Origin: a virus
Strand: one strand, 5' to 3'
Length of the DNA: 20,134 nt
Virus record (IMG/VR): IMGVR_UViG_3300037507_003212
Location: 1 to 20,134 of that record
In this document: positions 3,790 to 20,134 of the stretch, in pieces
How the letters are laid out: every line of letters starts with the position of its first letter
Numbering within the stretch: the stretch's first letter is position 1
The notes under the pieces: generated by a model
Database searches by the model: none
Told to the model about the DNA's origin: nothing
What the model saw: only the letters and a program-made list of their open reading frames with translations
Made by a program: the position numbers and the translations under genes

Positions 3790-4332
3790 ATGACCCGGCC
3801 GCGAGATAATCAGCGCAGCCGCCTGTACGCAGCGGAGTGGGAGTGCTTCGGATGGACGCATATGCAGTTCAAAGACTTTCCGGCAACCGAGAAATACCTT
3901 TGGAAAGTTTTATCGAACAGATATGTCCAGCGTAAATACCAAATCGCCCGCGACATAAAGTCTGGACTCATTCCAATAAAAGTCTCCAAGGGGGACGGCT
4001 CTCGTGTTGCCTGGGCCCGGATACTCCCAGACAAGATGTGGGTGTCATTCCCGCGTAAATGGAGGAACGACTTCACCGTCATCCATCAAGTCGCCCATCT
4101 CCTCACGCCGCCCAACGTTCAGGAACACGGAAGAGAGTTTTGCCGAACGTACCTACATTTAGTACTTGTCGTAATGGGCCGGGAAAAACAAAAACAACTC
4201 AAGGCCGCGATGAAGAAACACAAATGCAAGTACTCTCACACTCACACCCCGTATAAAAATCCTCTCACTCAGGAGGAAAAGGACATCATGCTCGCTAGAC
4301 TCCTACGCATCACATATGAAAAACGGACATAA
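3790..4332 (+). CDS. Zincin-like (SprT-like) protein with HQxAH in place of HExxH
   Basis: A 180-residue protein. The N-terminal DNQRSRLYAAEW and the later WVSFPRKWRNDFTVIHQVAHLL...HGREF pattern match a metallopeptidase-like family common in actinophages and actinobacteria, in which the core is HExxH plus a downstream His. Here the core reads H99-Q100-V-A-H103, with H113 as likely third ligand. Zinc ligands are kept but the catalytic Glu is Gln, so it may bind zinc without protease activity, or the base may be wrong. The C-terminus is Lys/His-rich. It is the first gene of a two-gene plus-strand cassette between repeat copies B and C and overlaps the next gene by 17 nt. Confidence 0.65.
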   Translation: MTRPRDNQRSRLYAAEWECFGWTHMQFKDFPATEKYLWKVLSNRYVQRKYQIARDIKSGLIPIKVSKGDGSRVAWARILPDKMWVSFPRKWRNDFTVIHQVAHLLTPPNVQEHGREFCRTYLHLVLVVMGREKQKQLKAAMKKHKCKYSHTHTPYKNPLTQEEKDIMLARLLRITYEKRT

Positions 4333-4825: not shown

Positions 4826-5389
4826 CTACCGACGCTTTTTCGGTCGTGCCGGACGCTTACGCACCGTCTTTTTACCGGCCTTCTTTACGGTCTTCCCATT
4901 TTTTGCGCTCGACCTTTTACCGGACCGTGTGCGAGAGTATGCTAATGCGTGCGATAGTGTGGTAGATGTACGGCGTGATGGTATCCGAGGCATACTCAAG
5001 TGAGGTGCAATCATCTCCGCCAAAGCATCTGTCACCCTTTCATTGACGTAGTCAATCCCTTTCTTGCGCATGGGGAATGTCTTGGGAGATAACTCTTCTA
5101 AGTGTTCTTCGGCGATTTCGTTTATTGCGTTGATGTGACAGTGCATGAGTTCGTGAGCGATAGTGCTTCGCATTACACTTGGTGACCACTTCCTCCATGT
5201 TTTGCATAAAGAGATTGTTGCGGAGTTTTGTGCGGGCAGTACGGAGATTTCTGCGAATGCGTCGTCCTCACAGAAGTATTTGTCAAATTGAATCTGCCAG
5301 TGAGCAAGTTTCATCTCGCCTTGGATTTTTTTGACATAGTCCTTCACCCAGGAGGGGTAACTGGTTTTGCGTGCTTTGAAAGTCGTCAT
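4826..5389 (-). CDS. Zincin metallopeptidase-like protein with basic C-terminal tail
   Basis: A 187-residue protein with HELMH at residues 79-83 (MRSTIAHELMHCH) and a downstream E117 in NERVTDALAEM that could be the third ligand, as in gluzincins. The N-terminal part (SWVKDYVKKIQGEMKLAHWQI) matches phage proteins that precede such a motif. Residues from about 156 on form a tail in which about half of residues are Lys/Arg (GKKTVRKRPARPKKRR at the end), suggesting nucleic-acid or anionic-partner binding. ATG 5389 was chosen because the upstream in-frame extension has no support and runs into the opposing gene. TACACT eight bases before the ATG may be a -10 box. Substrate unknown. Confidence 0.7.
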   Translation of the reverse strand: MTTFKARKTSYPSWVKDYVKKIQGEMKLAHWQIQFDKYFCEDDAFAEISVLPAQNSATISLCKTWRKWSPSVMRSTIAHELMHCHINAINEIAEEHLEELSPKTFPMRKKGIDYVNERVTDALAEMIAPHLSMPRIPSRRTSTTLSHALAYSRTRSGKRSSAKNGKTVKKAGKKTVRKRPARPKKRR

Positions 5390-5489
5390 GATTCCACAGT
5401 GTAGGATTATCTTCCGCGTATTGTTATGATAGTACCGCGGGTATAGAGGGTGTGTATGATAAGTTTTATGGGGATTGCGAGGTAGTCCT

Positions 5490-6071
5490 GTGACCATCGA
5501 AAAAAAACTAGTAATCAATAAGTCCACCTACGCTGAAACCTTGCTATTTAGCGCCTTGGACTGCCAGTACATCATTGACTGGGCTATCCGGTACGGGAAC
5601 CCACAGCCAGGCCTCATCCATACCCTCTCAGAAGCGTCAGGAAGCGTTTTAAGGCGTTGTAAGGAGTACACCCTAGACGCACGCGATATTTCCCTTAATG
5701 ACGGCTCTACGCTCGCCATGCGTGTCCATGGAGCCTTTGCCGAAGCCAATGTCTGGAATCTGTCCTTTCTGGATGTTCCGTCAGTTCGGGTTATGGAGTA
5801 TCAGGTTGGGGACGGGTACGGGTGCCACACCGATTGGTCGCCTGGAGCAGCCAAAGAACGAAAGTTGTCTATGACCGCTCAACTGTCTTCCCACTACGCC
5901 TACAAGGGGGGCCAGGTGGTGTTGTATGCGGGGCCAGAGGATGACTACATCTCTCAGGTTCAGGGGATGGCTACTGTCTGGCCTTCTTGGACTCTTCACG
6001 AGGTCCTTCCAGTTGAGCAGGGGGTTCGTTACTCCCTTACGGCTTGGGCACACGGCGAGATGTACCGATAG
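5490..6071 (+). CDS. 2-oxoglutarate/Fe(II)-dependent dioxygenase, PKHD type
   Basis: A 193-residue protein with the prolyl-4-hydroxylase-like double-stranded beta-helix: YQVGDGYGCHTDW gives H113 and D115, TLHEV gives H170, and GVRYSLTAW gives R180 for 2-oxoglutarate. Such enzymes hydroxylate proteins, nucleic acids or small molecules; the phage substrate is unknown. GTG 5490 is chosen over TTG 5475 because GAGGT (5479-5483) stands 6 nt before it. It starts a plus-strand unit with the two genes downstream and is divergent from the zincin gene, with a TATGAT at 5455-5460 as a possible -10 box. Confidence 0.85.
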   Translation: MTIEKKLVINKSTYAETLLFSALDCQYIIDWAIRYGNPQPGLIHTLSEASGSVLRRCKEYTLDARDISLNDGSTLAMRVHGAFAEANVWNLSFLDVPSVRVMEYQVGDGYGCHTDWSPGAAKERKLSMTAQLSSHYAYKGGQVVLYAGPEDDYISQVQGMATVWPSWTLHEVLPVEQGVRYSLTAWAHGEMYR

Positions 6072-6887: not shown

Positions 6888-7100
6888 TTAGCCTTCTTGG
6901 CTTTTGCGCTGACTTTTATTTGTCTTCTTCTTGCCTACTGGGCCGTGAAGGTCATGGGTTCGTAATGGGTCGCCTAGCGATAGTCGGGTTCGGCGCTTTC
7001 CGGCTTTGGTTCCGGGAACGACTTCAATCTTTCCGGTGAGGTAGTTCAGTCGTTCGCGTTGCTGCGCACCGCGTGAAACACTTTTATTCTTCTTACCCAT
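6888..7100 (-). CDS. Small highly basic hypothetical protein
   Basis: A 70-residue protein, rich in Lys/Arg at both ends (MGKKNKSVSRGAQQRERL and GKKKTNKSQRKSQEG). It has no hydrophobic core long enough for a membrane segment and may be disordered or bind nucleic acid. It is the last gene of the operon starting at 12876, 2 nt after the speD-like stop. Function unknown. Confidence 0.6.
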   Translation of the reverse strand: MGKKNKSVSRGAQQRERLNYLTGKIEVVPGTKAGKRRTRLSLGDPLRTHDLHGPVGKKKTNKSQRKSQEG

Positions 7101-7102
7101 GA

Positions 7103-7492
7103 CTAGATTCGCTGACCTGTTTTCTCAATCACAAAACCATCTTCACGATTTATCACTACATAGTGGTAATCGACCAAGTCAAAATACTCTTCACACTTCT
7201 CCAATACGAGTTCCGTAGGAAGGGTTGAGCATGTATACAAGTCAAACTGTACGCGCGCTGGGACTTCTTCATCCCAAACGTGAAAAGCAATGTGTGATGT
7301 CTCAATACATACAGCCGCAGTAATTCCGCGATTGCCTTCCGCTTCCACATAGTGCGCATGAGGACCGGTGACAATCTTCATGCCGATGTCACTAACTAAT
7401 TGAGTCAGCCAATCCTTGACTGATTCGATTTCGCGCGGCGGCCGATAGGCCTTGCCGTTCATCAAAAGGTGGTGATGCAAGATTGTTGTCAT
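7103..7492 (-). CDS. speD: S-adenosylmethionine decarboxylase-like protein (SpeD family)
   Basis: A 129-residue protein of the usual size of class 1b AdoMet decarboxylase. ETSHIAFHVWDEE corresponds to the self-cleavage site: S66 is the expected pyruvoyl precursor, H71 is five residues on as in the bacterial enzyme, and FDLYTC88ST matches the conserved catalytic Cys. The N-terminal HHHLLMNG aligns with the family's first strand but has Asn where many have Glu. The family makes decarboxylated SAM for spermidine; some relatives have shifted to ornithine or arginine decarboxylation, so the substrate is open. It overlaps the WhiB gene by 101 nt, and no spermidine synthase is in the window. SpeD genes are known in some aquatic phages. 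Confidence 0.8.
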   Translation of the reverse strand: MTTILHHHLLMNGKAYRPPREIESVKDWLTQLVSDIGMKIVTGPHAHYVEAEGNRGITAAVCIETSHIAFHVWDEEVPARVQFDLYTCSTLPTELVLEKCEEYFDLVDYHYVVINREDGFVIEKTGQRI

Positions 7493-7955
7493 GAGATACT
7501 TTCTTGATAAAGGCGATGTCTTCTGGATGAATAATGTAGTCCAACAACGACCTGTATCTCAGGAAGGATGCCTTTACCCTCCAATTTCTCTTATTTTCGA
7601 TATTCCACTGCTTACCCAAAAGCGCTCTAATCCTCTCCGAAAACCCTCCCCAAATACCGTGCGGTTCGTATTCCAGCGAATACATCAAACACTTGGCCCG
7701 GATGTCGCACGAGCGACAAAGTCCTATTGCTTCGTTTCTTTTAGCAAGTTCATGCTTGGTGTACCGCCCATCGACATGTCGGATAAAAAATATTGATGTG
7801 TCTTTGCCTTCGCAGGCTCCGCCACGGGGGAAGTCAATATCCTCTCCGACAATGAACCTATTCAACTTAAGAAATTCGTCCTGCGCAACTTCTACACGCT
7901 TTTTGGGAGATGGGGAAAAAGCGTTGTGCTCTCTTGTTTGGTTTTGATTTCTCAT
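7392..7955 (-). CDS. WhiB-family [4Fe-4S] transcriptional regulator with long C-terminal extension
   Basis: A 187-residue protein with the four WhiB cysteines C48, C80, C83 and C89 (AC...GLCRSCDIRAKC) and the GIWGG turn at 100-104. WhiB proteins bind an iron-sulfur cluster and act with the principal sigma factor; they are confined to actinobacteria and their phages, and mycophage examples can interfere with host WhiB proteins. Typical members are about 80-130 residues; this has some 70 residues after the core (KQWNIENKRNW onward), without the common basic AT-hook-like tail. The start ATG 7955 has AAAGG 6 nt upstream and forms an ATGA overlap with the gene before it. The 3' end overlaps speD by 101 nt. 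Confidence 0.9.
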   Translation of the reverse strand: MRNQNQTREHNAFSPSPKKRVEVAQDEFLKLNRFIVGEDIDFPRGGACEGKDTSIFFIRHVDGRYTKHELAKRNEAIGLCRSCDIRAKCLMYSLEYEPHGIWGGFSERIRALLGKQWNIENKRNWRVKASFLRYRSLLDYIIHPEDIAFIKKVSHDNNLASPPFDERQGLSAAARNRISQGLADSIS

Positions 7956-8179
7956 TGTTTGCCTTTCGTTGTGTTTTGTTCACCATTACCGTACGACCAA
8001 AGGTGTCGTTCTTCCAACATCAAAGTCGAAATTTTGAATACGACGTTCTCTTCTTCGGTAAAAATTCCATTAGATGTACAGAGATAATGAATCTCTGCAG
8101 TTGTCAGCATTTCACATTCGCTCGGGTCTAACGCGTGACGCTGAAGGCTTTGAGTTAATACAACCGCAGAGGCGTACAT
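7952..8179 (-). CDS. Hypothetical protein
   Basis: A 75-residue protein beginning MYASAVVLTQSLQRHALDP. Its middle (TAEIHYLCTSNGIFTEEENVVFKI) resembles small alpha-helical phage proteins, but I recognise no family. It overlaps the upstream gene by 25 nt and WhiB by 4 nt (ATGA), so WhiB is probably translated by coupling to it. No strong ribosome-binding site precedes 8179; an internal ATG giving MLTTAEIHY is possible. Confidence 0.6.
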   Translation of the reverse strand: MYASAVVLTQSLQRHALDPSECEMLTTAEIHYLCTSNGIFTEEENVVFKISTLMLEERHLWSYGNGEQNTTKGKQ

Positions 8180-8436
8180 GCGCTGCCAGTACTTAGCGCT
8201 GCCGCCTTCAGGACTAAAGGGGATACCACCCTCTTTGAAAACAAATCAATAACGCAGTCCCAAGTTTCTTCAGATGGAGCAGGGAATCCTGCTTCTGCCG
8301 ATATCTTGGCTCGATACTTTGGCGACATGTTCCTCACATTGAACAAGTGAAGCCCCATGTTTTCAATTCGGTCAACAATCCTTGTTGCTTTATAAAAGCG
8401 ATTTTGTCTTCGGTATGGGTTTGGTTCTGTATCCAA
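8155..8436 (-). CDS. Hypothetical protein, TTG start
   Basis: A 93-residue basic protein beginning (M)DTEPNPYRRQNRFYKATRI. TTG 8436 is chosen over an in-frame TTG at 8490 because AAAGAGGTG stands 7 nt upstream and the stop of the upstream gene (8441) is within that spacer. The centre has NVRNMSPKYRAKISAEAGFPAPSEETWDCVIDLF. I recognise no family. Confidence 0.6.
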   Translation of the reverse strand: MDTEPNPYRRQNRFYKATRIVDRIENMGLHLFNVRNMSPKYRAKISAEAGFPAPSEETWDCVIDLFSKRVVSPLVLKAAALSTGSACTPLRLY

Positions 8437-8440
8437 GGTT

Positions 8441-8626
8441 TTACACCTCTTTCGTTTTCCAAACCCTACTGCTGTAACTAGGCTTTGCAACTTTTTCAGC
8501 CTGCAATTTTTTCAGTTCTTTATTTTCGGCGTAAACAAAAGAATGCGCTAAAGAAACCAAACACAGAACAACAAATAAACAAATAGCGATAAGCCAGCCA
8601 ATTACGGCAATAGTTATCCACAGCAT
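8441..8626 (-). CDS. Small single-pass membrane protein
   Basis: A 61-residue protein with one long hydrophobic segment at about residues 2-30 (LWITIAVIGWLIAICLFVV and on) followed by a basic cytoplasmic-type tail (ENKELKKLQAEKVAK). GGAG 6 nt upstream of ATG 8626 supports the start. The topology would suit a membrane-anchored accessory protein; nothing nearby indicates lysis. Confidence 0.65.
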   Translation of the reverse strand: MLWITIAVIGWLIAICLFVVLCLVSLAHSFVYAENKELKKLQAEKVAKPSYSSRVWKTKEV

Positions 8627-8628
8627 TT

Positions 8629-8913
8629 TTACTCCAGTGGCGCTCGGCCACCAGCAATTATTTTTCGTGCAAGCGCTACCATCTGCTGGATGAGCGGTTT
8701 GGAAACGGTAAGTTCTCCAGCCATTTCCGAATAAGAAAGACCTTCTGCGTCTGAGCCACCAAATTCGCAGGACTCTTTAATGGCAAGAGCACGCTGCTCA
8801 ATGATGCCGCGGCGAATCTCTGCTACTGCTGGGAGGAGTTCAAAATGTAGCGCACGCGCACGCTCCACTGGGTCAGAGATTTTTGTAACTTCTTTTAGTT
8901 TGTTCTCAATCAT
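8629..8913 (-). CDS. Small helix-turn-helix protein
   Basis: A 94-residue helical protein. Residues about 60-84 (LSYSEMAGELTVSKPLIQQM) form a classic HTH, similar to sigma-factor region-4-like helices in small actinobacterial proteins. The N-terminal part (ISDPVERARALHFELLPAVAEIRR) is helical and may dimerise. It lies 3 nt after the RusA gene stop and 2 nt before the membrane-protein gene. Likely DNA-binding regulator; target unknown. Confidence 0.7.
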   Translation of the reverse strand: MIENKLKEVTKISDPVERARALHFELLPAVAEIRRGIIEQRALAIKESCEFGGSDAEGLSYSEMAGELTVSKPLIQQMVALARKIIAGGRAPLE

Positions 8914-8916
8914 GTC

Positions 8917-9294
8917 CTACTCCAACTCGGTTATTTCGATAGTTGCCTTACTCTCACCGGATATGACAGGTGCTTCGAATATCAGTCTACGCACAGTATC
9001 CGGTCCATCGCCAGTAAGCACACCGGCGTCTACTAGGCCGTCAATCATGGCTTTTGCCACGGGGAAGTGCCCACCAGTGTCTGCTAGGCCCCGTTTGTTC
9101 ACCCGATGGGGGGTGAATCGGACCTCGATTGCCTTCATTTTGGGAATCTTGCGAGCAATAGCAGAAACACAAGCCGCCTCTCTCCACTCCTTCACTTTTT
9201 TGGCACGAGTGAAGTGATGCTGAGTCCTTTCTTTGTTCAAGGTCCACATTTCACCCCAAACCTCAAGAACGTGTGTCGTTTTGGAGGCGGCCAT
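8917..9294 (-). CDS. RusA-like Holliday junction resolvase
   Basis: A 125-residue protein of family size. LAD72TGGHFPVAKAMID85GLVDAGVLTGD96 shows the acidic residues and the Lys-x-x-(I)-D-G-L helix that define RusA-type endonucleases. The usual second Asp of the DxD pair is replaced within DTGG, as often seen in actinophage members. RusA cuts four-way junctions during recombination and resolves branched DNA before packaging. ATG 9294 forms TAATG with the stop of the CmoA-like gene; longer in-frame starts lie inside that gene. Confidence 0.8.
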   Translation of the reverse strand: MAASKTTHVLEVWGEMWTLNKERTQHHFTRAKKVKEWREAACVSAIARKIPKMKAIEVRFTPHRVNKRGLADTGGHFPVAKAMIDGLVDAGVLTGDGPDTVRRLIFEAPVISGESKATIEITELE

Positions 9295-10013
9295 TACTTG
9301 AACGCAATCCATCCTGCGAAGTTCAGGCATTGCCAGAACCTTTGCACATTCGTGAAACCAGCATCTTTTAACATTCTTTCATTTTCTGAACCACGCAGAG
9401 GAACCAGCACACCCTGTAGTGCCTTCCTCTTTTCTTCAATCTGTTCTTCTGTGTAGCCGGAGTCTGATTTGTATGTGTGATAAATGTCAACGAGAAAACC
9501 CTGCGAGACGGGACTTTCACCAAGTATTTTCTCTACGACCACAAACGCTCCATCAAAGGATAAACCACTATGTACTTTCTGGAAGAAGTCTTGGCGAACG
9601 TCAAGCGGAATGAACTGCGCCGTCAATACAGACGTAATGAGAGAATATTTGCCAGGGGTGATATCAGCAGCCTGCAAGTCAGCGTGAATAAAGTTGACAT
9701 TTTCAAAATTGCTAAAGGATTCAGTGGCGACGTCAATCATCGGCTTAGAAGAATCAACTCCTACGGCAGTAACCGTCTTTTGATTTGGAAGCGAATTAAG
9801 GATTTGGTAAATGGTCTCTCCACGGCTGCACCCAAGGTCCAGTAGGAACGGACTCTTTGTTTTGGTAAGCATTGGATAAGCAACGCGAACAACACAATCT
9901 CGCATTGTCGAATAGCCGGGTATCGACCTAGAAATCATGTCCTCAAATACTTTTGTTACCCCTTCATCAAAGGACCACTTGCCTTCAGGTTTGTAATTAT
10001 CTTTTTGACTCAT
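9294..10013 (-). CDS. CmoA-like carboxy-SAM synthase / SAM-binding enzyme
   Basis: A 239-residue protein matching CmoA along its length: FDEGVTKVFEDMISRSIPGY (15-34), DLGCSRG (59-65, SAM motif I), VGVDSSKPM (motif II), TAQFIP, SGYTEEQIEEKR (185-196) and WQCLNF (227-232). CmoA converts SAM and prephenate to carboxy-SAM; R199 of the E. coli enzyme contacts the carboxylate, and the aligned R196 here is kept. In bacteria CmoB then carboxymethylates tRNA U34. No CmoB is recognised in the window, so carboxy-SAM may serve another acceptor. It overlaps the ParB-methyltransferase gene by 4 nt and RusA by 1 nt. Confidence 0.85.
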   Translation of the reverse strand: MSQKDNYKPEGKWSFDEGVTKVFEDMISRSIPGYSTMRDCVVRVAYPMLTKTKSPFLLDLGCSRGETIYQILNSLPNQKTVTAVGVDSSKPMIDVATESFSNFENVNFIHADLQAADITPGKYSLITSVLTAQFIPLDVRQDFFQKVHSGLSFDGAFVVVEKILGESPVSQGFLVDIYHTYKSDSGYTEEQIEEKRKALQGVLVPLRGSENERMLKDAGFTNVQRFWQCLNFAGWIAFK

Positions 10014-11557
10014 AGTTGTATGCCCAACCTTTTGGAGAATGCCGCTTTTGCCTCTTCTGCCATGCCAAGTCTCCTGCCTTCTGGGTGCGGGACATTAAAT
10101 TCAAACTCGATAGCGGCACGCAATTCGTCGGCTTCAATTTTGCGGGCGTTGCAACCAACCGCCTGAACAAGTCCGTTTTTAGCGGTCAAGAATGTCAGAA
10201 CTTGTTTATAGCCATGGGAAATAAGATTGCCAAACTCAGTTTCCGTGTGGTACTTCTGGACCTTTGGCTTTAGGGCAATATCGGAAATGATGATTCGGGG
10301 TTCGTAGTCAAGGGCAAAGCCATTGCTCGAAGTGTCATGCCCCTTCTTTAAATCACCGCGCGTGTGATTGAACCAGCGGTCTGACTCAGTACAGATAGCA
10401 GCCGTATGGAGTTTTGTATAAGGCGACGACAGCGCGGCGACAATGGCGATTACGTGTTTTCTGTCTTGCAGGAAGGGGATACTATTAAAGACCGATGCAA
10501 TAAAGATGCTGTCCCACTCGGTGCCATCTGCAACTCTCTCAAGAAACTTTGCAGTAAGTTCGCGAGCAGCGTCAGTATCAATGTTCTCGTTGTCTCTGGA
10601 GAGAAAGAAAGGCTCAAACGCAACTGCGTCAACTCCCATTTTCTTGAGAATATCCGTCTTATCACATAGCCCAGCGCCAAAATCAATAACGTGATTGCCG
10701 TAATAATCTTTCCACAACTCGACGTGACGGGGATTATTCAGGTCAAAAGCCCCATTACGATTTCCGGAATTAATAAAGTGCCTCAAAAAGTCTTCAAGAA
10801 AAGTAGGGGTAAGAATCTGGACTCTTTGATTTTTTCTCCGGAAAGAGTTATAGCGCAATAAATCTTCGTATCTTTCCTGGATGTTGTAGTCCATCGTCAG
10901 CAAGTTCATCATTGCCCTTACCTCTTCTGCGACCTCAGGAGATACAATTACCGCATTGACAAAGTCTTCGTTATTAGAAACCGCATAGGTCAATCGAGCA
11001 AGCCCATTGAGGACCTTGTAATCGGTCGTGCAGATAACAGGCATTTGCGGAAGTCCATTTGTTTTCAATTGAGCGGCCATCGCAATTGCGTGCTGTTCGG
11101 GCCATTTGCCATTTATCTGGATAAGCCGAAGAGAGGACACTGGCTTGGTCTTCATGATTGGGTACCACTCTGGAGTATCCAATGGGATATCCGGAAGCAT
11201 CTTAATTTTTTCTAAGTCTCCCAGTTTTGTCATGAGGTCTTCTTTTAAATCGGCAGTAGAAAGAGTTTTATACATATCATTTGTCGCGCGATTGTATAAA
11301 ACGTTTATTCCCATGCGTCTTTCAATCTTGAATGTTGGAACGCGAACAACCGGAATCATCTTGGCTCCCATATTTGTGGCGACCATATGACGTTGGTGCC
11401 CGCTTAATATTTCACCATCTCCATCTGCATAAATTGGTAGCAGCCAACCAAACTTACGCAGCGACAGTTCGACCATCTCTAGCCGTTCCTTGTCTGCTTT
11501 TCTTGGGTTATACGCAGATGGACGCAGGTCTTCAACCGGAGTTAATACTGGCTTCAT
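10010..11557 (-). CDS. ParB-like protein fused to a SAM-methyltransferase-like domain
   Basis: A 515-residue protein. Residues 5-75 are a ParB/Srx-like domain (NPRKAD..., then GEILSGHQRHMVA). Residues about 140-205 look like a second, diverged copy (KVLNGLARLTYA). Residues about 286-430 look like a Rossmann methyltransferase: VIDFGAGLCD (motif I) and a FEPF acidic motif after the second strand. The C-terminus is helical. The ParB domain may recognise DNA or hydrolyse nucleotide, and the methyltransferase domain may modify DNA or RNA; the motif I shows GAGLC rather than canonical GxGxG, so activity is uncertain. It is coupled by TAATG to the tandem-ParB gene and by 4 nt to the CmoA-like gene. 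Confidence 0.7.
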   Translation of the reverse strand: MKPVLTPVEDLRPSAYNPRKADKERLEMVELSLRKFGWLLPIYADGDGEILSGHQRHMVATNMGAKMIPVVRVPTFKIERRMGINVLYNRATNDMYKTLSTADLKEDLMTKLGDLEKIKMLPDIPLDTPEWYPIMKTKPVSSLRLIQINGKWPEQHAIAMAAQLKTNGLPQMPVICTTDYKVLNGLARLTYAVSNNEDFVNAVIVSPEVAEEVRAMMNLLTMDYNIQERYEDLLRYNSFRRKNQRVQILTPTFLEDFLRHFINSGNRNGAFDLNNPRHVELWKDYYGNHVIDFGAGLCDKTDILKKMGVDAVAFEPFFLSRDNENIDTDAARELTAKFLERVADGTEWDSIFIASVFNSIPFLQDRKHVIAIVAALSSPYTKLHTAAICTESDRWFNHTRGDLKKGHDTSSNGFALDYEPRIIISDIALKPKVQKYHTETEFGNLISHGYKQVLTFLTAKNGLVQAVGCNARKIEADELRAAIEFEFNVPHPEGRRLGMAEEAKAAFSKRLGIQL

Positions 11558-12876
11558 TACTCTCCGTTTGCTCTACGAGGGCTGACTTTCTTTGAGCGTC
11601 GCTGACGAGTGGAAACCCATGCATCGTTTTGTATTTCCAAAAGTTGCATAATCCCGGCACAAACTTCTTCGTATGAGAAGCCAAATTCAACAAAAATTGA
11701 CTCTTCCCAATCCTCGTAGAAGTTTGGAGCCATCTTGAATTCCCACTTACCAACGATTGACGTTACATTTCTTGGCTTGTCATTCTTTTCTTTGACTGGC
11801 TTTTCCTTAATTCCCCAACCAGCGACCTCATGCATTAAGTCATCAAGGTCGTCGCCGGTATACCCAGTTCCCTCAAATGCGGGGAGTGACTGAAGTATTT
11901 CGGCCAACTCCACATGGTCATATGAACCCATGTCGGAAGTTTTGTTATCAACCAAAACAATCTTTGCTGCTTCTTCGTCGTCGCAGTCAACAAATGTTGC
12001 CGCGATTTGCTTCCACCCCAAAGCCTTTGCGGCTTTCCAGGTGTGATTGCCGACAAGAATTGAATTATCTCGCTTGTTGACGACAATCGGTCTGAACTGT
12101 CCGTTCTTGCTTAGCGACTCAGCGATAAGGCCAATATCACCCTGACGAGCGTTCATTGGATATGGGAACACACTGTTGATGTCCACGTTTTCTGTAGACA
12201 GCATAACTGAGTGCATTTGCTGTCTGTCAATGTTTCGCTTTTGACGCTTTGCGCGTGCCTTCTGTGCTGCTATCTGAGAAACATCAGATAGGCGCAACCT
12301 CTTTTTCAATTCTGGAACAACCTTGTCCTCTTCGCCAACTTTAGAGAGGACACTTTCGGCCCAGTCTTTGTAGACATCATCATCAACCAGAACTCTGTAA
12401 CTTCCAACACACACACGGATTTCCTTGCCGACAGCACCGGTACGGTCCTTGTTGGGTGCTTCGAATTCTCCAGTTCCATCAATCAGCGTCTGCAACTGGT
12501 CAATGTCGACCTCGTTGAAACCAGTGCCATCTAGTGTTGGCAGAGACTGCAACAAGTCCAAAAGTTTTGAATCATCGTAAGAAGACATATCCGATGTTCT
12601 GTTGTCGGCCAAAACAATTTTTTGTGCACCGTAGTCATCAACATCCACAAAGGAAACAGCGATGTGCGTCCAACCCAGGCTTCGTGCAGCACGCCAAGTG
12701 TGATTGCCAGCAAGAATCATGCTGTCCCGTTTGTTCACGACAATGGGTTTGTATTGCCCATTTACTTCAAGTGACTTTGCTATTTCGTCAACATCACCGC
12801 GTCTTGGATTCTTTGGATAAGGTTTAAGGCTTGTAATTTCTACAATTTCTGTGTTTACGTGAATATTGTCCGACAT
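11557..12876 (-). CDS. Protein with two tandem ParB-like domains
   Basis: A 439-residue protein made of two homologous halves. Repeat 1 (about 11-176) and repeat 2 (about 229-395) each have PYPxNxRxGD, GQ(Y/F)(K/R)PIVVNKRD, GNHTW(R/K)AA, KIVL(A/V)DN(R/K)TSDM and LLQSLP-like blocks, then a VGxxxxxxxxxxYxDWxES block. This ParB type is the one often found at the N-terminus of DNA methyltransferases, rather than chromosome-segregation ParB. A basic linker (KARAKRQKR) and a basic C-terminus (RQRRSKKVSPRR) suggest nucleic-acid contact. Possible leaderless start with TATACT 7 nt before ATG 12876. Confidence 0.8.
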   Translation of the reverse strand: MSDNIHVNTEIVEITSLKPYPKNPRRGDVDEIAKSLEVNGQYKPIVVNKRDSMILAGNHTWRAARSLGWTHIAVSFVDVDDYGAQKIVLADNRTSDMSSYDDSKLLDLLQSLPTLDGTGFNEVDIDQLQTLIDGTGEFEAPNKDRTGAVGKEIRVCVGSYRVLVDDDVYKDWAESVLSKVGEEDKVVPELKKRLRLSDVSQIAAQKARAKRQKRNIDRQQMHSVMLSTENVDINSVFPYPMNARQGDIGLIAESLSKNGQFRPIVVNKRDNSILVGNHTWKAAKALGWKQIAATFVDCDDEEAAKIVLVDNKTSDMGSYDHVELAEILQSLPAFEGTGYTGDDLDDLMHEVAGWGIKEKPVKEKNDKPRNVTSIVGKWEFKMAPNFYEDWEESIFVEFGFSYEEVCAGIMQLLEIQNDAWVSTRQRRSKKVSPRRANGE

Positions 12877-18590: not shown

Positions 18591-20134
18591 TTACGGAGTA
18601 AAAATGCCAGAGCAGTCGTTTGGTGCGCTTTGGAACGGCGACAAACAATAGTCCTGACAACAGCAGATTTCGTTTGCGTAGAGGAACTCTGAACAGGTTT
18701 GTCCATCATAAGCAGGTGGGTCAACTGGCGAAACTGGGTCAACTGGCGAAACTGGGTCAACTGGCGAAACTGGGTCAACTGGCGAAACTGGGGATGGGGA
18801 GCCAGCACACTCTTCAAGACAATAAATTGTTTCCGTGTTGTCATCATGAACAATGCGGGCAAATAATGTAAGGGTATCTGCATCCCAAAAGAATCCGATT
18901 CTATCCGTGTAATCATTTGCTTGATATTGAATTCCTTCTTTCCAGACTACTGTTTTTTCAGAATTAGAAAGTGCCCCATCGGATGAAAAAAACTCAAGTT
19001 TTTCCCATGTAAGTATGGACTTGCTGCCAATAAATTCGCTTTCGGCACCATTGAGTTTAATCCCAGCAGCATCGTTTCCTTGGCTATCTGTTAGTCCCTC
19101 AGCGGTTTCAAGGTTCCCAATAATCATATTTCCAAGGAATGTTCCTCCAAGAAGCAAATACTGTTCGCCAATTTCTAAATCTCCGATTTTTCCTGTTGAC
19201 GCAATCATGAAACCGGCATTTGTTACTGAAAATGGAGCAGAACCTATACTGGCAGAACCGGACCACATGTCTCCATTTGCCCCAACGTGAAATGAGGTAT
19301 TGTCAAAACCTCCGATATCAATTGTTGAACCAACAATTTGACCAGCAAAAAATCCGTCAACCGTATATAGGTCGCCAGTCACAGAACTAATTTGAGTTAC
19401 CAAATCTCCAGCGTTATCAAATGCGCGGAGTCCCGAAGAATCTATAATAATTCGCGGATTGGATGTAGATGTTTGCAGTGTCGGTGCGGTAAGCGTTCCT
19501 TGAACCCATGTCCCGTTTCTTACTGTTACTGAGTTAAGTTCTGCGTCTCCAGATGCTTCAATTGTCCAGCCGCTTGTGTCTGCAACATAATTGTTTGAGC
19601 GGATTGCTCCGTTGAATAAGACCTGAGCGCTTGCAGAAGCAGTGAAGGAAAACGGGGGGGATGGGACGCCAGATTGACCATTTGTCGTGTACGGCAAAAT
19701 TGTGAATTGATATTCACGCCCAGGTGCGGCAAGGTTTTCGAATACAGCAGAGTTTTTGTCAGCCGCAACGGTTGTTGAGTGTCGTTCAACAATTCGAGTC
19801 ACGTCACCCACAGAGGCTGTTCCGGTTGGGATGTCTGGACCTACGTCATCAAAGGTGAAAAATGTTGCTGAGGCACTTGTCAAAAACACAAGTGTTCTGT
19901 CAAAGTATTCATCTGTAGTGCCAGTGATATTGATTAGGTCGCCGACATTAAAACCATGCTCATCGTCAACTTCTCCATAAACAATGTTTCCGTCACGGTA
20001 GATGTCAACAATTGGATAACTAATTGCTATTCCAACACTGTTTTGCTCTTCTCGGTAAACAATCGCTTCGTAATGAGTAGCGCTTGTGTTGTCTGGGGAT
20101 TCCCAAGAGGCAACAACTCTGTTGCTCATCCCAA
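18591..20134 (-). CDS. Tail-fibre or minor-tail-like protein, probably 5'-partial
   Basis: At least 512 residues. The first codons (MSNRVVASWESPD, ATG 20129) read like the interior of a fibronectin type III domain, and no stop lies between it and the window edge, so the gene likely continues upstream. The FN3 fold is interrupted at residues about 35-110 by a module with HGFNVGDLINITG, common in fibre proteins, and resumes (GREYQFTILPYTTNGQSG). The middle is strand-rich and Gly/Ser/Thr-rich. Then come four PVSPVD repeats and a Cys-rich end with eight Cys (ICCCQDYC among them), which could form disulfides or a receptor-binding tip. Confidence 0.75.
   Translation of the reverse strand, partial: GMSNRVVASWESPDNTSATHYEAIVYREEQNSVGIAISYPIVDIYRDGNIVYGEVDDEHGFNVGDLINITGTTDEYFDRTLVFLTSASATFFTFDDVGPDIPTGTASVGDVTRIVERHSTTVAADKNSAVFENLAAPGREYQFTILPYTTNGQSGVPSPPFSFTASASAQVLFNGAIRSNNYVADTSGWTIEASGDAELNSVTVRNGTWVQGTLTAPTLQTSTSNPRIIIDSSGLRAFDNAGDLVTQISSVTGDLYTVDGFFAGQIVGSTIDIGGFDNTSFHVGANGDMWSGSASIGSAPFSVTNAGFMIASTGKIGDLEIGEQYLLLGGTFLGNMIIGNLETAEGLTDSQGNDAAGIKLNGAESEFIGSKSILTWEKLEFFSSDGALSNSEKTVVWKEGIQYQANDYTDRIGFFWDADTLTLFARIVHDDNTETIYCLEECAGSPSPVSPVDPVSPVDPVSPVDPVSPVDPPAYDGQTCSEFLYANEICCCQDYCLSPFQSAPNDCSGIFTP
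18718..18789 (-). repeat. Four perfect 18-bp tandem repeats encoding PVSPVD
   Basis: The unit GGGTCAACTGGCGAAACT (plus strand) occurs four times without mismatch and is itself two related 9-bp halves (PVS and PVD codons). It encodes a Pro-rich spacer between the tail protein's body and its Cys-rich end. Perfect identity suggests recent slippage, so copy number may vary among relatives. Confidence 0.9.

Follow-up and report, generated by a model that had tools for sequence, protein, structure and literature searches.

Described carboxy-SAM systems and the present locus

Carboxymethylation of phage DNA was described in December 2025 by Yang et al., in whose system a phage CmoA makes carboxy-S-adenosylmethionine (Cx-SAM), CmoX, a C5-methyltransferase (C5-MTase) with an SPPC motif and an arginine that binds the carboxylate, produces 5-carboxymethylcytosine, and CmoY, an amide ligase of the asparagine (Asn)-synthase type, couples glycine to that base (PMC12783734). 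ParB genes near CmoA-CmoX were noted in the same work, and a preliminary search there for carboxymethyltransferases of adenine N6 or cytosine N4 alongside CmoA gave no candidates (PMC12783734). Only transferases of the C5-MTase type were described; the locus reported here points to a different family in that place. The window, meaning the whole stretch analysed, is 20,134 nucleotides (nt) of the IMG/VR record IMGVR_UViG_3300037507_003212, and the interval studied, 6,888–12,876, has its genes on the minus strand. They include a CmoA homologue and a fusion of a ParB domain to a class I S-adenosylmethionine (SAM)-dependent MTase, called ParB-MT below.

Three minus-strand genes are central: those for a tandem ParB protein (11557–12876, 439 amino acids (aa); Pfam ParB_N in two stretches, E 1e-17; phrog_723/8071), ParB-MT (10010–11557, 515 aa; phrog_5475 across its full length, E 4e-88; ParB_N E 5e-4) and CmoA (9294–10013, 239 aa). 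With the CmoA-CmoX-CmoY system of Synechococcus phage S-B43 (PMC12783734) the locus shares a CmoA homologue, an adjoining transferase gene, a ParB neighbour and the lack of CmoB. It differs in that the window's clade has neither the C5-MTase CmoX nor CmoY, that the putative transferase belongs to the unrelated ParB-MT family, and that ParB-MT loci have a HAD-like partner, whereas CmoX loci do not. The bacterial CmoA-CmoB pathway to the tRNA wobble modification cmo5U likewise has a CmoA with the Cx-SAM-binding arginine, but phage records lack CmoB and ParB-MT is not detectably its relative. Other phage fusions of ParB to DNA methyltransferases (e.g. phrog_498) carry an N-terminal ParB domain of the same type; ParB-MT is a separate family, whose C-terminal MTase has no adenine or cytosine MTase motifs. 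In the literature searched we found no description of the ParB-MT transferase family, of its exchange with CmoX or of the HAD partner.

We read the core and the HAD-like protein as a version of the phage system for DNA modification from Cx-SAM in which ParB-MT would replace CmoX, and put the probability of this at roughly 0.6. Gene content, conservation, the exclusion of CmoX, its repeated exchange, fold predictions and a diagnostic arginine of CmoA were all computed for this study.

CmoA and ParB-MT travel together

An IMG/VR scan with ParB-MT alone as query returned 79 loci of 100% to 38% identity, 80 with the window's own, and a CmoA profile found CmoA encoded in all 80. A scan of bacterial genomes gave 54 further loci, mostly prophage-like, from Verrucomicrobiota, Lachnospiraceae, Oscillospiraceae, Desulfovibrionaceae, Vibrio, Photobacterium and others. 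ParB-MT is present in 52 of these, and 46 of the 52 have CmoA; the other six include four contig ends or fragments. One locus with ParB-MT and no CmoA (L164) resembles a prophage remnant that has retained its HAD gene, and at another (L168) nothing phage-like was seen adjoining. Over all loci the two genes lie less than 1 kb apart in 155 of 160 pairs. Gordonia phage Evaa, Aeromonas phage HJ05 and Pseudomonas phage SM1, all cultured and unrelated, likewise combine ParB, ParB-MT and CmoA. In nearly all relatives the gene just upstream of ParB-MT encodes ParB; this ParB is tandem in the window's clade and single in most relatives. The conserved core is ParB, ParB-MT and CmoA, while RusA, WhiB and SpeD of the type seen here are found only in the window's clade (L002–L016).

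An earlier note on this DNA had described one tightly coupled operon that gathers all of these genes. The coupling is real: the tandem ParB, ParB-MT and CmoA genes overlap successively by 1 and 4 nt, and spacings inside the unit range from −101 to +3 nt. Equally tight packing, however, continues upstream as far as 16318, so that membership of one operon is weak evidence for a shared pathway and conservation elsewhere is the real test. That whole 6.9–16.3 kb region being so packed, its genes might be chance neighbours among early genes, and RusA, WhiB and SpeD do look like such. For CmoA and ParB-MT this is refuted, since their pairing holds from 100% down to about 31–39% identity, in phages of many bacterial phyla; as an account of the locus we give chance a negligible probability. 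The earlier note had itself named random co-occurrence of the CmoA and ParB-MTase genes as what would overturn its proposal. The association is strongly non-random, both by the counts above and by the exclusion described next.

CmoX and ParB-MT alternate in one slot

The CmoX-type layout is present in phages PaBG, S-B05 and TurkishDelight. No C5-MTase (PF00145) occurs in records of the window's clade, large contigs included, or in the complete phages Evaa, HJ05 and SM1; a C5-MTase elsewhere in the window genome was also searched for, and none was seen. CmoB is missing from the phage records (TIGR00452), the window included, where the earlier note had also seen none.

To avoid selecting loci through ParB-MT, a second IMG/VR scan was seeded with CmoA, using a narrower query alignment (A4) that is itself mostly of the ParB-MT type. 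Clustering these loci at 85% identity gave 50 groups, in which CmoA stands beside ParB-MT in 15, beside CmoX in 28, beside both in none and beside neither in seven (Fisher p 8e-8). The SPPC motif of CmoX is present in 37 of 38 CmoA-linked C5-MTases. A tree of 86 CmoA representatives shows about 11 switches of partner between ParB-MT and CmoX, and ParB adjoins both kinds of transferase. Mutual exclusion and repeated exchange indicate that ParB-MT fills the CmoX slot, and the use of CmoA's product by both enzymes is the best explanation for their exchange in a single position next to CmoA. ParB-MT is on these grounds a candidate second carboxymethyltransferase family. Two carriers of ParB-MT, Aeromonas phage HJ05 and Rhizobium plasmid p7, also encode CmoY-like ligases, as the formation of a carboxyl handle would lead one to expect.

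In five loci (L018, L019, L027, L165 and L167) a C5-MTase that matches the CmoX profile weakly (about 1e-15) is encoded several kb away from ParB-MT; CmoA is still beside ParB-MT in each, and the L018 enzyme reads PCQ, not SPPC.

The CmoA homologue

The window CmoA aligns with TIGR00740 over residues 11–239, essentially its full length, at E 6e-46 and 157 bits, which is below the curated cut-off of 193.3. It was aligned by sequence with the solved CmoA structures 1im8 and 4gek. In Escherichia coli CmoA, no side chain other than that of Arg199 contacts the carboxyl group of Cx-SAM (PMC4482062). R196 of the window protein aligns to Arg199, and an equivalent is kept in 127 of the 158 CmoAs of the ParB-MT type that are readable at this position. 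The window CmoA is probably a Cx-SAM synthase.

ParB-MT could instead be an ordinary SAM-dependent methyltransferase of DNA or protein, with CmoA serving separately, for example in depleting SAM against SAM-using defences. CmoA does consume SAM, such a role was raised as a possibility in PMC12783734, and some CmoAs of the group lack Arg199. Such an arrangement would nevertheless leave unexplained the tight pairing, the exchange with CmoX at the same place and the retention of Arg199 in most of the group, and we consider it unlikely.

The CmoAs of two prophages in Vibrio and Photobacterium (L188 and L206) are without Arg199, and their hosts have their own CmoA and CmoB; the phage proteins have perhaps decayed or changed role. 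Host supply as a cause of Arg199 loss was considered and is not claimed, as a case in Puniceicoccaceae does not fit it.

The ParB-MT protein

ParB-MT has a ParB domain at about residues 1–95, a basic helix (LRYNSFRR) and a class I SAM-MTase domain at about 275–515; a second ParB-like segment at about 165–215, with NGxxR, is read from the motif only. The AlphaFold model scores 84.8 in the predicted local distance difference test (pLDDT) and 0.80 in predicted template modelling (pTM), and Foldseek matches it to class I MTases and to ParB. Pfam gives no match for the MTase part of the window protein, so the assignment comes from motif I (VIDFGAG), weak Methyltransf_23 matches in relatives and the predicted fold, which is a Rossmann MTase fold with D292-G294-G296 and the acidic E315 invariant. 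In 37 non-redundant relatives R188, R235, R241, D292, E315, N358, D365, R366, K432, Q434 and K435 do not vary. After strand 4 the window protein reads SVFNSIPF and the family SV[FL]NS[IV]PF, like general class I MTases.

The carboxylate site of CmoB comprises Lys91 and Arg315 (PMC4482062). By analogy, the invariant basic residues of ParB-MT are a candidate carboxylate site. The tandem ParB protein is a probable DNA-binding or targeting partner.

The HAD-like partner

Beyond the interval of the earlier note, at 1550–2071 on the minus strand, lies the gene for a HAD-like protein related to phrog_32036. Proteins of this kind have about 140–170 aa and the motifs DLN, ITAR, K and E/DSN (DSN in the window). 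Of 161 loci with ParB-MT and CmoA, 131 have the gene, placed between those two or close to them, versus none of 41 CmoX loci; counted by cluster, it accompanies ParB-MT in 35 of 49 and CmoX in none of 28. Among 50,697 phage-collection records the only match was in Evaa. SM1 and HJ05 do not have it, so it is common and not essential. The neighbourhood scan showed no other partner of comparable spread, the next being a terminase-like gene (14 of 49). The model (pLDDT 93) has the HAD fold, and its best Protein Data Bank matches are Pnkp1 (Foldseek 1.7e-4) and the 3′-phosphatase domain of T4 Pnkp. The catalytic DxD is altered, the second Asp being Asn, and DLN is invariant in 32 of 32 aligned sequences.

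Because Pnkp1 belongs to the Pnkp1/Rnl/Hen1 RNA repair complex, these matches raise by analogy the idea that ParB-MT acts on RNA (tRNA or cleaved RNA ends) with Cx-SAM or SAM, and that the HAD protein takes part in end processing. The general class I type of the ParB-MT core and the tRNA role of bacterial CmoA would suit this. We think it improbable, to about the same degree as an ordinary methyltransferase or slightly more so: RNA ligases, kinases and CmoB are not recurrent neighbours, the enzyme itself carries fused ParB domains, its slot is shared with the DNA enzyme CmoX, and the catalytic DxD of the HAD protein reads DxN.

Proposed pathway

In the DNA-modification system that we favour, CmoA would make Cx-SAM out of SAM and prephenate. 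ParB-MT, replacing the C5-MTase CmoX, would use its C-terminal class I MTase domain to bind Cx-SAM and would move the carboxymethyl group onto a base of phage DNA, while the ParB modules may hold or spread the enzyme on the DNA. The HAD protein would act at a further step specific to the ParB-MT branch. What we infer here is the use of Cx-SAM by ParB-MT, the DNA substrate, the base and atom modified, and the roles of ParB and HAD. A more specific version, to which we give somewhat less than even odds, is that ParB-MT (phrog_5475) constitutes a new family of Cx-SAM-dependent DNA carboxymethyltransferases, widespread among the phages and prophages of many phyla, making a base other than 5-carboxymethylcytosine, with HAD as its branch-specific partner.

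Several points weigh against a carboxymethyl transfer to DNA by ParB-MT. Support is computational throughout. The ParB-MT alignment contains no known DNA MTase motif (no [DNS]PP[YFW] and no conserved PC). Kinship with CmoB was tried and rejected, the hhalign probability being 9%, that is, no detectable relation. No CmoY-like or Asn-synthase ligase is present in the window or in the large contigs of its clade (PF00733 and CmoY profile). Much of the deep branching in the CmoA tree has weak support, and the well-supported branches force only 5–6 changes of each label; the exclusion counts, for their part, were drawn from related sequences. Arg199 is missing in 31 of the 158 readable CmoAs (distant clades, including SM1, HJ05 and Evaa), with mostly Ala or Glu instead, so that these may not make Cx-SAM or may differ in chemistry; the window's CmoA retains the Arg. 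Finally, a Cetobacterium somerae plasmid (L223:4340-6350) encodes ParB and, at 22% identity, a very distant homologue of ParB-MT, next to which no CmoA-like gene is annotated; this marks either a limit of the family or a loss.

If the proposal is true, it predicts a new modified base. There would then be a second way of recognizing Cx-SAM on DNA, and ParB domains and a HAD protein would take part in DNA hypermodification.

SpeD and other neighbouring genes

Every gene that the earlier note had named is present at its place on the minus strand, as judged from Pfam, PHROG and TIGRFAM matches. Three of them, all minus-strand, lie outside the conserved module: a RusA-like Holliday junction resolvase (8917–9330; phrog_34 E 8e-11), a WhiB-like transcription factor (7392–7955; Pfam PF02467 E 3e-12) and a SpeD-like protein (7103–7492; AdoMet_dc PF02675 E 3e-13). 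A small gene (6888–7100, minus strand) and four small genes between the RusA-like and WhiB-like genes complete the interval.

SpeD had been counted as a third enzyme of SAM chemistry. The window protein, aligned to the SAM decarboxylase (AdoMetDC) sequences 2iii and 1tlu, keeps the catalytic Ser, His and Cys. It departs from bona fide AdoMetDC in having TSH for ESH and HVWDE for HTWPE, as do all SpeD proteins of the clade, the position of the Pro being inferred; residues that separate bona fide AdoMetDC, Pro among them, are given in PMC10407285. The nearest phage homologues are of the pelagiphage HTVC201P type (43% identity). The HTVC201P protein is an arginine decarboxylase that does not feed spermidine synthesis; relatives in freshwater phages act on ornithine (PMC9992855). 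With such SpeD-derived pyruvoyl ornithine/arginine decarboxylases (PMC9992855, PMC10407285) the window protein shares the fold, the S/H/C residues, the Thr before the catalytic Ser and the loss of Pro; its own activity is a prediction from sequence, and the diagnostic Gln could not be placed. The window SpeD is most likely a SpeD-fold pyruvoyl ornithine or arginine decarboxylase rather than AdoMetDC, and a polyamine gene. It is absent from all other ParB-MT clades and phages searched, and within the window's own clade it is missing from L011, where synteny is intact. On distribution and residues we reject it as a core pathway member, so that the supposed three SAM enzymes are really two. Like WhiB and RusA, SpeD is a neighbour that serves a separate function: polyamines for SpeD, transcription for WhiB and recombination for RusA.

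The earlier note had proposed that a carboxymethyl or amine group is transferred to phage DNA or RNA. Its carboxymethyl half is supported, namely transfer from Cx-SAM to phage nucleic acid by a system that has ParB modules and lacks CmoB: a pathway of this type has been published for CmoA-CmoX phages (PMC12783734), and the pairing is non-random. The role of SpeD is not supported. The note was roughly right about the chemistry of a real system, and had grouped in an unrelated enzyme. The larger pathway, in which an amine made by SpeD (putrescine or agmatine) would be joined to the carboxymethylated base, draws on two observations: most members of the window's clade have SpeD within this unit, and on Rhizobium p7 the CmoY-like and SpeD-like genes are one gene apart, a few kb from ParB-MT and a CmoA-like gene. 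It has the confined distribution of SpeD against it, as well as the lack of a ligase in the window and its clade's large contigs, the lack of the catalytic His in the p7 SpeD, and the occurrence of this SpeD type in pelagiphages and freshwater phages as a polyamine gene (PMC9992855). We regard it as very unlikely, more so than either the RNA or the ordinary-methyltransferase alternative.

The p7 region itself, from a Rhizobium bangladeshense plasmid (L222 and L224), is phage-like; a span of about 9 kb there holds genes for ParB-MT, a CmoA-like protein, an Asn-synthase-like protein and a degenerate SpeD.

Elsewhere in the window are two 2-oxoglutarate-Fe(II) oxygenases (PF13640; 16531–17883, minus strand, and 5475–6071, plus strand), found in part of the window's clade only and possibly base or protein hydroxylases. 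A tail-type protein (18591–20129, minus strand) has weak fn3 and tail-tip matches and a short repeat, SPVDPV, near its C-terminus. A SprT-like zinc metalloprotease (4826–5527, minus strand) was recognized by a weak Pfam match, and a small protein (3790–4332, plus strand) has a possible HxxH motif.

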